Origin: Candidatus Zixiibacteriota bacterium
GTDB taxonomy: Bacteria > Zixibacteria > MSB-5A5 > GN15 > JACZUZ01
Direction of reading: 5' to 3'
NCBI GenBank assembly: GCA_024280835.1
Contig: JAJRPJ010000016.1
Location: 1 to 64,000, forward strand
Length of the DNA stretch: 64,000 bases
A program made the position numbers and the translations under genes. Position 1 is the first letter of the stretch; each line of letters begins with the position of its first letter. Shown here piece by piece: positions 15,309 through 27,531 of the stretch. The notes beneath the pieces are model-generated. The model was given only the letters and a program-made list of their open reading frames with translations, made no database searches and had not been told where the DNA came from.

Positions 15309-15375
15309 GCTTATTGATGAAAATCGACTGCGTTTTTTCCCGTTGTGTGACCAGAAGCTCTAATAATATAAAAAA

Positions 15376-15420
15376 GTGTCGGGTCACAATTTTCGTAAAA
15401 CGAAAATCAAGACCCGACAC
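15376..15420. repeat. 45-bp palindromic repeat, copy 1
   Basis: The arms GTGTCGGGTC and GACCCGACAC are exact complements. An inner AT-rich stem (ATTTTCG with CGAAAAT) lies inside. The same element recurs at 49479-49523 with identical outer arms and a changed loop. It is intergenic and lacks coding potential, like a REP/BIME-type dispersed hairpin. Confidence 0.9.
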
Positions 15421-15472: not shown

Positions 15473-16549
15473 TTAGCTATTGGGCCAGAACTTTCCGATT
15501 GTGGTGCGTGGGAAGAAGCTCTTCCAAGCGAACCAAAAAGTTGTAATTAGGGGCATGGATTCGAAGCCATCGACGCCAGCGCGGAGTTCATTGGCGGTGA
15601 GCGTTTTGCCAGAGAATTTGACTGAGCCATCGGATTCGACAGTTAGTTTTCCCGACTTTGCTTTTTCGGCTGTCGTTGAGTAGGCGAATGAGTCTCCTGA
15701 ATCTGGGTCATAGAAGACTAGAGCGACTTGGCCAGCTAATTCTACTTTTGCGGTGGAGGCTTTTGTGATTTTGTCCAATGACAAAGCCACAGCGTCGCGT
15801 CCGATTCGCAAACCCAAGGCGATGGTTTTGGTTCCCATGTCTTCGGATTCAAAAGTATGGCCGAAGATTCCCACTCGCTCTGGATCGGTGAAATACTTGT
15901 TGTAATAGGAACCCGCCTCTCCCTTGCTTGGTTTGTCTAGGAACTTCGCTTGTGGGTAGCGTTCGACTACTGCGGAGAAATTCATAAACTCTGACGGAAA
16001 TAATTCCAGTATCTGGCCTTTCATCTTCCCTTCTAGCCCTTCGCCAGAAATCTGAGACCAGAGTGAACTGGTCTGACGATCCATGAGGACTAGCGCGTCT
16101 CTCCATAGTGAACCAGAGGCTTCGAAGGTATATGTTTTTCCATCAATCTCAGCGGCATACACGATGCCAGTATAACAGAGTGGTCACCATGTCACCGCGA
16201 TTGCGGCGCCTCCTATGTGGTCATTGACGACTTCATGGCCATCGAGATGCCAAGTTGAATAGGCTTTGACCTCATCGCCAGAGCGAACGACCATCATCGG
16301 CTCTTTTTCATAATAGAGTTCTGCGGCTTTCTTGGCAGAGATGAACTCTGGCTTGAAAATGGCTGGGATTCCACCTGGCGGCATCAGGGTGAAAAGTGTA
16401 TCACCAGCTAGCATTCTGGTCTTGGGCTTGGGACGTTGTGCGAAAGCTCCAGATGAGGCCACCAGTCCCAGCGCAATTGCCAGTGTCGTGACCTTAAACA
16501 GGACTTGTTTGAACAGAAATGGCCTGTTAGTGTTTGTTAGGGGTTTCAT
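15473..16549 (-). CDS. DUF3179 domain protein, predicted exported selenoprotein (in-frame UGA at 16186-16184)
   Basis: One 358-residue gene read through a TGA as selenocysteine at residue 122. The N-terminal part has a signal-peptide-like segment (about residues 15-38) and the DUF3179 motif HEVVND (105-110). The C-terminal part carries MDRQTSSLWSQ and the remainder of the family. The family motif CPLC reads U-P-L-C here: VTW, TGA, PLCYTGIVY. No other stop or frameshift interrupts the 1077 bases. A SECIS-like hairpin begins 15 nt after the TGA. The start at 16549 is preceded by GGGAGGAAA. DUF3179 function is not established; a CxxC motif suggests redox or metal chemistry. The alternative is a pseudogene with one nonsense mutation, which I consider less likely because a second independent case occurs at 26962. 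Confidence 0.82.
16153..16169 (-). promoter_or_regulatory. Candidate bacterial SECIS hairpin of the DUF3179 gene
   Basis: Stem UGGCAU (16169-16164) with AUGCCG (16158-16153) encloses the loop CGUGU, whose second base is G. The loop starts 21 nt after the UGA, similar to the E. coli fdhF arrangement. Bacterial SECIS elements lie in the coding sequence just after the UGA and bind SelB. Confidence 0.6.
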
Positions 16550-16826
16550 TGCTTCTGGTTTCCTCCCATTGGGGCTGATGATTGTTTATTTATTTAACTC
16601 TGTTTGTAGACTTTCTCCATCAATTCAGAACACAATAAATGTACATAAGTTTCAGCCTTGTTTGCAATAGATTACAATAATTTGCTGGTCAATACTGACT
16701 TCGGCAGTATTTGCTCGGCATGGGCTAAATCCTTATGTTGGGTTTGAAATGGGCGTGTTTTTTTGGGGTCTGTTTTGTAGCTAATGGGAACAACTAAACG
16801 ATTCACTTCTGGTATAGGTATTCCAA

Positions 16827-24633: not shown

Positions 24634-25443
24634 ATGATTAATTTTCGCAGAGACAATAACAAAGACAATTGGAGCGACAAGCCGTCATCAATTTCAAGGA
24701 ATAGAGCGACCAGTAGCGCTGTTGCATTTGTAGGAGCTTTGGCGATTACTTTTCTTGCCAGCTCTGGACTTTGGGCGAATTCTCGACTGACAGTCTCGAA
24801 TCCTGAATTTGATTTCGGTTTTGTACCGACAAATTGTGATGTTACATACAATTATTGGCTACATTCGACTGGTTCTTCAGACTTGCGAATTGAGTGGACT
24901 GACGCCTCTTGCCCATGTGCCCAGCTTCCTATTTCCAGCGATGTTATCAAATCTGGGGACTCTACGGCATTTGAATTGATATTCATCGCTGGCCGTGTCG
25001 CTGGAGCTATCACTCGTAGTCCCTATATCAAAACCAACGCCGACAATGATCCTGAGCGTCTCAAGTTTACCGCGAAAGTTGTTCCAGGTGAAACTGGGAA
25101 AGTTGAACCACTCGGCATCAAGCCCTTTAGGGCTGATCTTTCGTCAATTGGCCGTTTTTCTCAGGACACCGCCCGTATAACGCTATTCAATAACTCCGAA
25201 TTCCCAATGGAATTAAGCGTGGTTTATACGCGACCTGAGTATTTTTCGATTGTCTTGCCAGAGACTATCAAGCCAGGAGAGTCTAGGGTCTGCTTGGTCG
25301 TTCTCAATAGCGAATCTCCAGAGGCGGTTGGCGCCGCATTTGCGAAGTCTTTTACTATTGAGGCGTCTTTGCGAAGGGTCGGAGATAGTAATTTGAAGAC
25401 TAGGTTTACGATTCCTGTTAGACGTAAGTACTCCGCCAAGTAG
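24634..25443 (+). CDS. DUF1573 domain exported protein, paralogue 1 (CPC form)
   Basis: 269 residues. A basic N-terminus and a hydrophobic segment (about 28-48) ending LWANS form a signal peptide. The DUF1573 (ASPM/SPD2/hydin-like Ig) domain starts at FDFGFVPTN. The family's CGC motif is CPC here (Cys93, Cys95). A second Ig-like region occupies the C-terminal half. It heads a run of three tandem paralogues on the + strand. The function of DUF1573 is unestablished; the domain is a periplasmic or surface Ig fold. Confidence 0.85.
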   Translation: MINFRRDNNKDNWSDKPSSISRNRATSSAVAFVGALAITFLASSGLWANSRLTVSNPEFDFGFVPTNCDVTYNYWLHSTGSSDLRIEWTDASCPCAQLPISSDVIKSGDSTAFELIFIAGRVAGAITRSPYIKTNADNDPERLKFTAKVVPGETGKVEPLGIKPFRADLSSIGRFSQDTARITLFNNSEFPMELSVVYTRPEYFSIVLPETIKPGESRVCLVVLNSESPEAVGAAFAKSFTIEASLRRVGDSNLKTRFTIPVRRKYSAK

Positions 25444-25511
25444 TGAGAGTATTATTGAGGCAGTATTATTGGGACAATATTGTTGAAAAACTTTTATTGA
25501 GGACTAATGAA

Positions 25512-26339
25512 GTGAAGCGCTACAGTAATATGAGCAAACTCTTGCGAGTTTCTCAACACAACTCAAAGATTTTTCAGACATCTATATTCCAATCATCGTC
25601 TCGTCGATTGACTCGCATTTTCTTGATGACTTTGGCGGTTATTGCATTTTCAGCTTCCATGCCCATGAAGACTGTCTGGGCTGAAAGCGGTGTTAGATTT
25701 GACCATACAGAGTTTAATTTTGGTCAGATTCCAGTCGGAGCTCTTGGGAGTCATACGTTTTGGATTCATGCCGTAGGCGCTGACACAATTGTTATTGATA
25801 CGGTGATTACGGGTTGTGGTTGTACGACTATTCCACTCGAGACAAAAGTACTAGCCCCTAGTGACAGTGTGGCTTTTGAAATTGTTTTCGACAGCAAAGG
25901 AATTTTGGGAAGCGTCGCCAAAAGGCCGGGCTTCAAAGTTAAAGATGATACGACACTCTATGATGTTAAGTTCTATGCATCGGTGATTTCCAGTGACACT
26001 GAGTTTTTCCCTATTTCTATTTTGCCACCATTGTTTCCAATTAATGAAGACAAAGCGCGTTCGGGGATTGATTTCCCATTCACTTTGTCCAATCTATCTG
26101 ACGAGGATATCACAGTTAGAGTCGTCGATTTTCCTAGAGCAATATTTGAAATCGAATTGGCAGAAGCTATTCCAGCTAAGGGTAGTATCACAGGGCATTT
26201 TAAGATGCTCGCAGGATACCCACTTGGCGAGAACATTAGTAAATCAATGACATTTGAAGTAAATAATAGTCAGCTCTTTCGACTCTCGGCTCCGATCATA
26301 ATGAAGGCGACATCGAAGGCGCCTGAAGAAGCAAAATAG
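25512..26339 (+). CDS. DUF1573 domain exported protein, paralogue 2 (CGC form)
   Basis: 275 residues from GTG 25512, chosen because GAGGA (25499-25503) lies 8 nt upstream; ATG 25530 is an alternative. A signal-like hydrophobic segment ends near MKTVWAES. The DUF1573 domain begins FNFGQIPVG and carries the canonical motif GCGCTTIPLE with Cys102 and Cys104. This copy is the reference for aligning the selenocysteine position of paralogue 3. It probably shares a transcript with paralogue 1, whose stop is 68 bases upstream. Confidence 0.85.
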   Translation: MKRYSNMSKLLRVSQHNSKIFQTSIFQSSSRRLTRIFLMTLAVIAFSASMPMKTVWAESGVRFDHTEFNFGQIPVGALGSHTFWIHAVGADTIVIDTVITGCGCTTIPLETKVLAPSDSVAFEIVFDSKGILGSVAKRPGFKVKDDTTLYDVKFYASVISSDTEFFPISILPPLFPINEDKARSGIDFPFTLSNLSDEDITVRVVDFPRAIFEIELAEAIPAKGSITGHFKMLAGYPLGENISKSMTFEVNNSQLFRLSAPIIMKATSKAPEEAK

Positions 26340-26718
26340 GATTTTGTAAGCCAATAGTTACAGGCAATTAGAGACCAACAAAGTCCACGCGACGTAAGCG
26401 ACTGGCGCTCAGACAATTACGGGCAAGGCAATACTGGAACAAAAAGCGCCGATAACTGTACTAAGAATAACGGCTAGGCTGTCAGCTAATATGTATTCAT
26501 CGTTACAGCAGTGATAGACAACCGAGAGAAGTTCTTGCCAGCAGGCCGATTAATGAGTTATATTGGTGTCGGTCGAGAATGCTGCACGTTCGCGGCATGG
26601 CGATTTTCTCGACGCAATTTTTCTCGATTTAAAGAGAATCAAAACCAGAGCTACTTTGACTTTCAACTTGAAGAAACATTTAAGAAATAAACTCACAATA
26701 AATCCGTATAGGTCTCAA
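26340..26718 (+). other. Intergenic region with a large hairpin (26572-26613)
   Basis: This 379-base gap separates DUF1573 paralogues 2 and 3. An 8-bp stem, GTCGAGAA (26572-26579) with TTCTCGAC (26606-26613), encloses a second stem, TGCTGC/GCGGCA (26580-26585 with 26592-26597). A T run starts about four bases after it. It could be a terminator or a leader structure of paralogue 3. No gene is visible otherwise. Confidence 0.5.
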
Positions 26719-27531
26719 ATGCAAAACACGATTCCAAGCTCCAAACGCTCTTTACGACGTGGACGGGCTCTCGCTTCATTCGGCGCCGCTTTGGCGTTGA
26801 CGCTGTGTTTTACAGCGCCAGCGAACGCCGAATCAAATCTTACTATTGAACAGTCGAGTTTTGATTTCGGGTATGCTCCCCAGAAGTCTAAACTCAGTCA
26901 TATATTTTGGCTAAAATCAACAGGTAGTGAAGTGTTGAAAATATCCAAGATCGTGCCTGGCTGAGGATGCACAAAAGCGCCTCTTGAGAAAGAAACGCTA
27001 GCTGTCGGTGACAGTACTCGGTTAGAAATTATTTTCAGCACAAAGACATACCGCACCAAGACGACCAAACGGCCAAAGATTTACATCGCTGGCAGTGATT
27101 TACCTCGTTCAGTGCAAATCACAACTCATGTTATCGCCGATCCGGATTCAACTTATCCTGTCGTCTTCGCGCCTTACAAACTTGACATTTCGCAGTATGG
27201 CACTAAGAAACGGGCAAAGATTGAATTCGAGATTAATAATGTCTCCAAGAAGGATCAAGCGATTGAGTTAGTTTCCTATGACAGTCGGTTTATGACTTTG
27301 AATATTCCTAAGGTGGTCAAAGCTGGTGAGACAGTCAAAGGTAGTGTTAAGATCACTGACGCCAAAATTAGTGAATCTTTCACGAAGTCAATAACTCTGG
27401 CTTTCAAACAGTCCGGTCCAAATACAAAACCAGTTCGCTTTACTATCCCAGTGACTCGAACCGTGCGTCCTCTTTCCTCGAAGTTGGATTCTGTTATGAC
27501 TTCAACTGGAAGAGGTGGTGGGTCGAAATAA
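26719..27531 (+). CDS. DUF1573 domain exported protein, paralogue 3, predicted selenoprotein (in-frame UGA at 26962-26964)
   Basis: 270 residues if TGA codes selenocysteine 82. A signal peptide covers MQNTIPSSKRSLRRGRALAS to ANA (about residue 37). The DUF1573 domain begins FDFGYAPQKS. The family motif CGC reads U-G-C: IVPG, TGA, GCTKAPLE, aligning exactly with VITGCGCTTIPLE of paralogue 2. The downstream frame stays open for 188 codons with full family similarity, and the total length matches the paralogues (269 and 275). ATG 26719 is preceded by AGG about 8 nt upstream. A SECIS-like hairpin follows at 26976. Read conventionally, this would look like two fragments ending at 26964 and starting near 27112. 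Confidence 0.85.
26976..26999 (+). promoter_or_regulatory. Candidate bacterial SECIS hairpin of DUF1573 paralogue 3
   Basis: Lower stem AGCG (26976-26979) with CGCU (26996-26999), a symmetric 2x2 internal loop, upper stem UCUU with AAGA, and a GAGA apical loop starting 22 nt after the UGA. A G in the first two loop positions and this spacing (about 16-37 nt) are typical of bacterial SECIS elements. The stem is AU-rich and weak, so support is moderate. Confidence 0.55.

Follow-up and report, generated by a model that had tools for sequence, protein, structure and literature searches.

The stretch of DNA analysed (the window, 64,000 nucleotides of contig JAJRPJ010000016.1 from a Candidatus Zixiibacteriota bacterium) carries on its minus strand a frame of 358 codons, running from 16549 to 15473, that contains a single in-frame TGA and ends in TAA. 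Ordinary ORF calling cuts this gene in two; reading the UGA as selenocysteine (Sec) would restore an intact, exported selenoprotein. The features of the locus, in order along the gene, are as follows.

16562..16567, minus strand: Shine-Dalgarno-like GGGAGG upstream of the ATG at 16549
15473..16549, minus strand: coding sequence of the DUF3179 selenoprotein (358 codons, the TGA counted as Sec), closed by TAA
16439..16549, minus strand: signal-peptide-like N terminus, residues 1-37, hydrophobic and ending ...SSGAFAQ, judged by eye
15950..16387, minus strand: first repeat, residues 55-200, which carries Sec and has a predicted fold resembling Rieske proteins (model)
16232..16243, minus strand: D103-G-H105-E106, conserved as DxHE and probably close to Sec, with H105 17 residues ahead of it
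16184..16186, minus strand: Sec codon TGA, residue 122, the U of UPLC; same column in 35 loci
16175..16177, minus strand: Cys125, +3 from Sec, sole Cys of the mature protein and likely resolving thiol
16153..16169, minus strand: SECIS hairpin UGGCAU-CGUGU-AUGCCG, with a 5-nt apical loop and GU at 16162-16161

The TGA stands in the context GAAIAVTW-U-PLCYTGIV, and no lesion other than it is present in the frame. The original prediction, of an in-frame TGA in the DUF3179 motif (VTW-U-PLC) of a protein that has both halves intact in one frame and is of normal length, is borne out by translation and by the Pfam DUF3179 model (PF11376), which is matched nearly end to end (residues 59-349, profile positions 2-292 of 292) with 207.7 bits, the curated cut-off being 27 bits. 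The signal-like N terminus and the HEVVND segment (residues 105-110) were likewise located. Judged from its sequence, the protein is probably exported and acts outside the cytoplasm. The promoter/terminator scan gave nothing above chance; 3' of the gene, at 15370-15420 of the window (minus strand), a palindrome, GTGTCGGGTC...GACCCGACAC, followed by TTTTTT is terminator-like by eye and was not picked up by the terminator scan because its loop exceeds the limit of that scan.

DUF3179 was sought across 132 genomes of phylum Zixibacteria, and 35 genes, including that in the window, were extracted with one TGA each, all in the identical column; 28 are full length, all with W-U-PLC, and seven have one repeat, with Y-U-P[LI]-[KQRA]. 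Taxonomically, these loci fall in four families of the window's own order and in four further families of its class. The nearest relatives keep the TGA, e.g. a same-genus copy, 69% identical to the window protein, and both sides of the codon are under purifying selection. In the comparison with that copy, dN is 0.14 on the 5' side of the TGA and 0.21 on the 3' side, with dS above 2; in twelve further pairs dN is likewise much lower than dS on either side. The idea that the window gene is a pseudogene or a sequencing error, i.e. that a Cys codon was nonsense-mutated in a dead or misread gene, draws on TGA being one substitution from TGC or TGT and on an assembly in 20 contigs, but is effectively excluded because the same TGA is conserved in 35 loci of many assemblies, and because dN is far below dS downstream, with no other lesion and with a hairpin under selection after the TGA. 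The early judgement that a chance nonsense mutation is unlikely is thus strengthened by 27 further full-length and seven one-repeat loci.

Cys was expected at the Sec column in homologues. It is present there, within the phylum, in paralogues that form a separate clade (CPLT in the ten genes that were read, one of which is in this genome) and, in other phyla and domains, in homologues from Thiothrix, Haloferax and Deinococcus (CPLC). The description of CPLC as the conserved motif therefore holds for the latter three homologues, but not family-wide, the Cys paralogues of the phylum having CPLT. The paralogue in the same genome (G000:C8:366537-367436) is likewise a full-length DUF3179 protein (290 bits), but differs in its CPLT motif, its lipobox-like N terminus and its placement in the separate clade. 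The Cys forms in RefSeq, including those of Thiothrix, Haloferax and Deinococcus, share the family and the motif, with C replacing U, but are 24-32% identical and lack the SECIS hairpin signal. Haloferax volcanii is among the species with a DUF3179 match. By maximum likelihood, the U, C and S states at the column are explained by only three changes in total on the tree.

The hairpin in the window gene starts after 14 nt from the UGA (occupying 15-31 nt after it, with 20 nt from UGA to loop), and with its 6 bp, its CGUGU loop and an energy of -10.6 kcal/mol it agrees with all of the published rules for bacterial SECIS elements, i.e. a loop of 3-9 nt, an upper stem of 4-16 bp, G in the first two loop positions, a spacing of 16-37 nt and an energy of at most -7.5 (PMC13188914). 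Stem, loop and spacing rules are satisfied by all 35 hairpins, and the energy rule by 32. Across the 35 sequences pairing is found in 90.6% of cells, with both sides changed in six of the seven pairs, as seen in compensated stems such as GGCAU/AUGCC, GGUAU/AUACC, GGCUGU/ACAGCC, GGCCGU/ACGGCC and GUCUGU/ACAGAC; the covariation score observed was reached by none of 500 shuffles, and shifting the partner by 1-3 columns abolishes the signal. Since the hairpin stretch is coding, synonymous-codon resampling was used as a control. The hairpins are more stable than their synonymous resamples (mean z -2.48), the values at eleven other sites of the same genes being -0.4 to +0.5; by the same control, the equivalent site in 14 Cys or Ser homologues has a mean z of -0.36. 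Codon choice for Ile and Val at the loop is linked, ATC going with GTG in 15 of 15 cases and ATA with GTT or GTC in 12 of 12 (p=6e-8, this and the other SECIS p-values being too small, as related sequences are counted as independent, though the direction is plain). ATT never encodes the loop Ile, although elsewhere in these genes Ile before Val is encoded by ATT more often than by any other codon. The folding energy of the hairpin region in a single sequence has a z near 0 and is uninformative alone, hence the use of covariation and of the synonymous-codon control; an Rfam scan of the window at the gathering cut-off gave no match. As read from these alignments, the hairpin after the TGA is a bacterial-type SECIS element, selected beyond the protein code.

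The Sec machinery that the original prediction presupposes is encoded in the same genome, with tRNA-Sec (anticodon UCA), adjacent selA and selB, and selD all found. Co-occurrence with selA is non-discriminating, because selA is over the cut-off in 116 of the 132 phylum genomes. No full-length selA was found in five MAGs with a Sec DUF3179 gene (G010, G029, G031, G050 and G131), of which G010 has a completeness of 93% and the other four of 83-88%. SelD itself is a selenoprotein candidate (L050, G000:C8:144518-145438), with an in-frame TGA in the context ACAG-U-ASKLGP and a GGU-loop hairpin 3' of the UGA. Reassignment of UGA, or its general read-through (e.g. as Trp) without Sec machinery, could account for the in-frame TGA in the DUF1573 and selD genes as well, but is refuted because TGA is the ordinary terminator of 10 of the 43 long ORFs in the window, and it fits neither with all three read-through genes being from known selenoprotein families nor with the presence of tRNA-Sec, SelA, SelB and SelD. 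UGA codon 122 of the window gene is very probably decoded as Sec (a probability of roughly 95%); as the comparative evidence supports, SelB and tRNA-Sec would decode it by way of the hairpin 15-31 nt downstream.

DUF3179 selenoproteins as a kind are already known. The family (PF11376, UxxC/T) is tabulated among prokaryotic selenoprotein families in two reviews (PMC9312934, PMC13188914), both of which credit it to Zhang and Gladyshev 2007 (Olavius algarvensis Delta 1 symbiont), and the RefSeq name in use is 'DUF3179 domain-containing (seleno)protein'. The listed proteins are of the same Pfam family as the window protein and have Sec at the same first position of CPLC; the Olavius algarvensis Delta 1 symbiont protein, likened here to the window protein via the review listings, is from a different phylum. 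Zixibacteria are unmentioned in both reviews (PMC9312934, PMC13188914), and within the literature searched there was no paper on Zixibacteria selenoproteins, only one in which the two words occur apart. What is new is the phylum-wide evidence, which serves as comparative proof of an uncharacterised selenoprotein family, together with a one-repeat form whose Cys pair may be displaced and a predicted fold that resembles Rieske proteins and would put Sec close to the box-II Cys.

With respect to chemistry, the motif points to a selenol-thiol redox role for Sec122 and Cys125, which we consider probable. Since Sec122 would make a UxxC pair with Cys125, there being no other Cys in the mature protein, selenol/selenenylsulfide chemistry appears most likely. 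The Sec122 selenol may attack an oxidised or electrophilic substrate, after which a selenenylsulfide would form with Cys125, with an outside reductant reopening the bond. As in the window protein, the +3 Cys is the sole Cys of the mature protein in 12 of the 28 UPLC proteins. Positions invariant in a set of 28 full-length proteins from the phylum, Sec and Cys forms together, include D103, H105, E106, N109, T120, U/C122, P123, L124, S145, D157, W164 and Q166. One homologue (L053, G098:C270) has SPFS in place of UPLC, i.e. both Sec and the +3 Cys are replaced by Ser, and has lost HE too; its genome also encodes a Sec copy (L054), and L053 is probably a paralogue without catalytic function. That Sec, HE and the +3 Cys were lost together, albeit in a single case, suggests that they belong to one shared active site. 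That Sec122 is redox-inactive or structural, the protein acting via another site, is very improbable in the light of this joint loss and of the Sec/Cys column, P123, HE and W164 being among the most conserved positions.

The predicted structure provides a further, less certain, view of the active site. The AlphaFold model of the window protein has a pLDDT of 91.4, and two repeats are apparent in DUF3179 when profiles of the N- and C-terminal halves of the Cys clade are compared (115 columns, hhalign probability 83.9%, P 8e-6). With the first repeat modelled alone (pLDDT 92.6), the top 22 Foldseek matches in the PDB are all Rieske-family chains, but with E values of at least 0.06; the leading match is a NirD-like protein (probability 1.00, TM 0.55 by target length). 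The strand order of the first repeat agrees with that of the Rieske fold, and the spacing of 17 between H105 and Sec is also the interval between box-I His and box-II Cys in every one of 30 Rieske proteins from relatives. The first repeat has in common with Rieske and NirD-like proteins the strand order, the 17-residue His-to-Cys spacing and a Pro after the Cys, and its predicted fold may resemble theirs, but the Rieske ligand set (CxH and CxxH, or CPxH) is absent from DUF3179, which has DxH and UxxC instead, and homology is not seen at the sequence level: hhalign of DUF3179 against Rieske profiles gave P 0.21, which is not significant, and Pfam/NCBIfam scans of 28 members gave no Rieske model. 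In NCBIfam, L061 matched the model of the Rieske dioxygenase HcaE (E 0.0039), but this was set aside, as other members did not show it. The PDB sequence search gave no relative, and whole-protein Foldseek gave no credible PDB match, with no Rieske-type match at the top. The DUF3179 model is also matched by a giant-virus protein of unknown function (BFVD A0A1V0SD44, Indivirus ILV1; Foldseek E 3e-9).

The moderate fold match and the strand order suggest that the Sec-bearing repeat is Rieske-like, with an incomplete set of cluster ligands and with Sec lying close to where the box-II Cys would be. If so, Sec122 might be a metal ligand, the protein being a Rieske-like metal or cluster protein with DxH and UPLC replacing CxH and CPxH. 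This proposal would accommodate the fold match, the H105-Sec spacing of 17 and the presence of a NapH-like membrane ferredoxin gene near Sec DUF3179 in three genomes; it is nonetheless unlikely, given that the one-repeat forms mostly have N/R/I/V for the His and K/Q/R/A for the +3 Cys, that the Cys paralogues have T at +3, and that profile comparison shows no sequence homology to Rieske proteins. A more tentative structural proposal, which we regard as plausible though somewhat less than even, is that DUF3179 is a tandem Rieske-like fold devoid of an iron-sulfur cluster, in which Sec replaces the box-II ligand Cys and the resolving Cys is either at the position of the box-II His (UPLC) or in an inserted CxC loop (one-repeat forms, with their lectin and dockerin regions). 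Were this the case, an electron-transfer scaffold would have become a selenol enzyme; a literature search gave no paper naming DUF3179 together with Rieske. Both the predicted Rieske-like fold and the homologue that lost Sec, HE and the +3 Cys together offer concrete, testable hypotheses on the active site.

The seven one-repeat Sec proteins (L039, L055, L056, L057, L058, L059 and L060) have the motifs UPLK/Q/R and UPIA, in which the +3 Cys is absent, i.e. UxxC is not universal, and this form falls outside the UxxC/T motif of the reviews (PMC9312934, PMC13188914). They have an inserted loop after the conserved Trp, with CxC in six and CxxC in the seventh, and it is possible that these Cys are a displaced resolving pair. 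L039 has C-type lectin and dockerin domains (Pfam); the other one-repeat forms, except L060, are similar by eye.

The gene neighbourhood varies. Within the window's genus the conserved flanks are a CheW-like protein and an M29 peptidase, which are mostly not common to other relatives and are uninformative. For three loci (L077, L078 and L081, from three genomes of two genera), the Sec DUF3179 gene is followed, in the same orientation, by genes for a Pyr_redox_2 NAD(P)H-type flavoprotein and a NapH/MauN-like membrane ferredoxin, which possibly supply electrons; this arrangement is absent from the window's own genus.

The original prediction referred to DUF3179 as a second case in an unrelated family, and the first case is very probably a DUF1573 gene at 26563-27531 (plus strand) of the window. 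Like the DUF3179 gene it has a conserved in-frame TGA (26962-26964, in PG-U-GCT), but it belongs to an unrelated Ig-like family and has the motif UGC. This gene is the third of three adjacent DUF1573 genes (24634-27531), and for most of 39 relatives the best match has this TGA as well. Its hairpin, CUGUC-GGU-GACAG, lies approximately 40 nt from the UGA, which is unusually distant.
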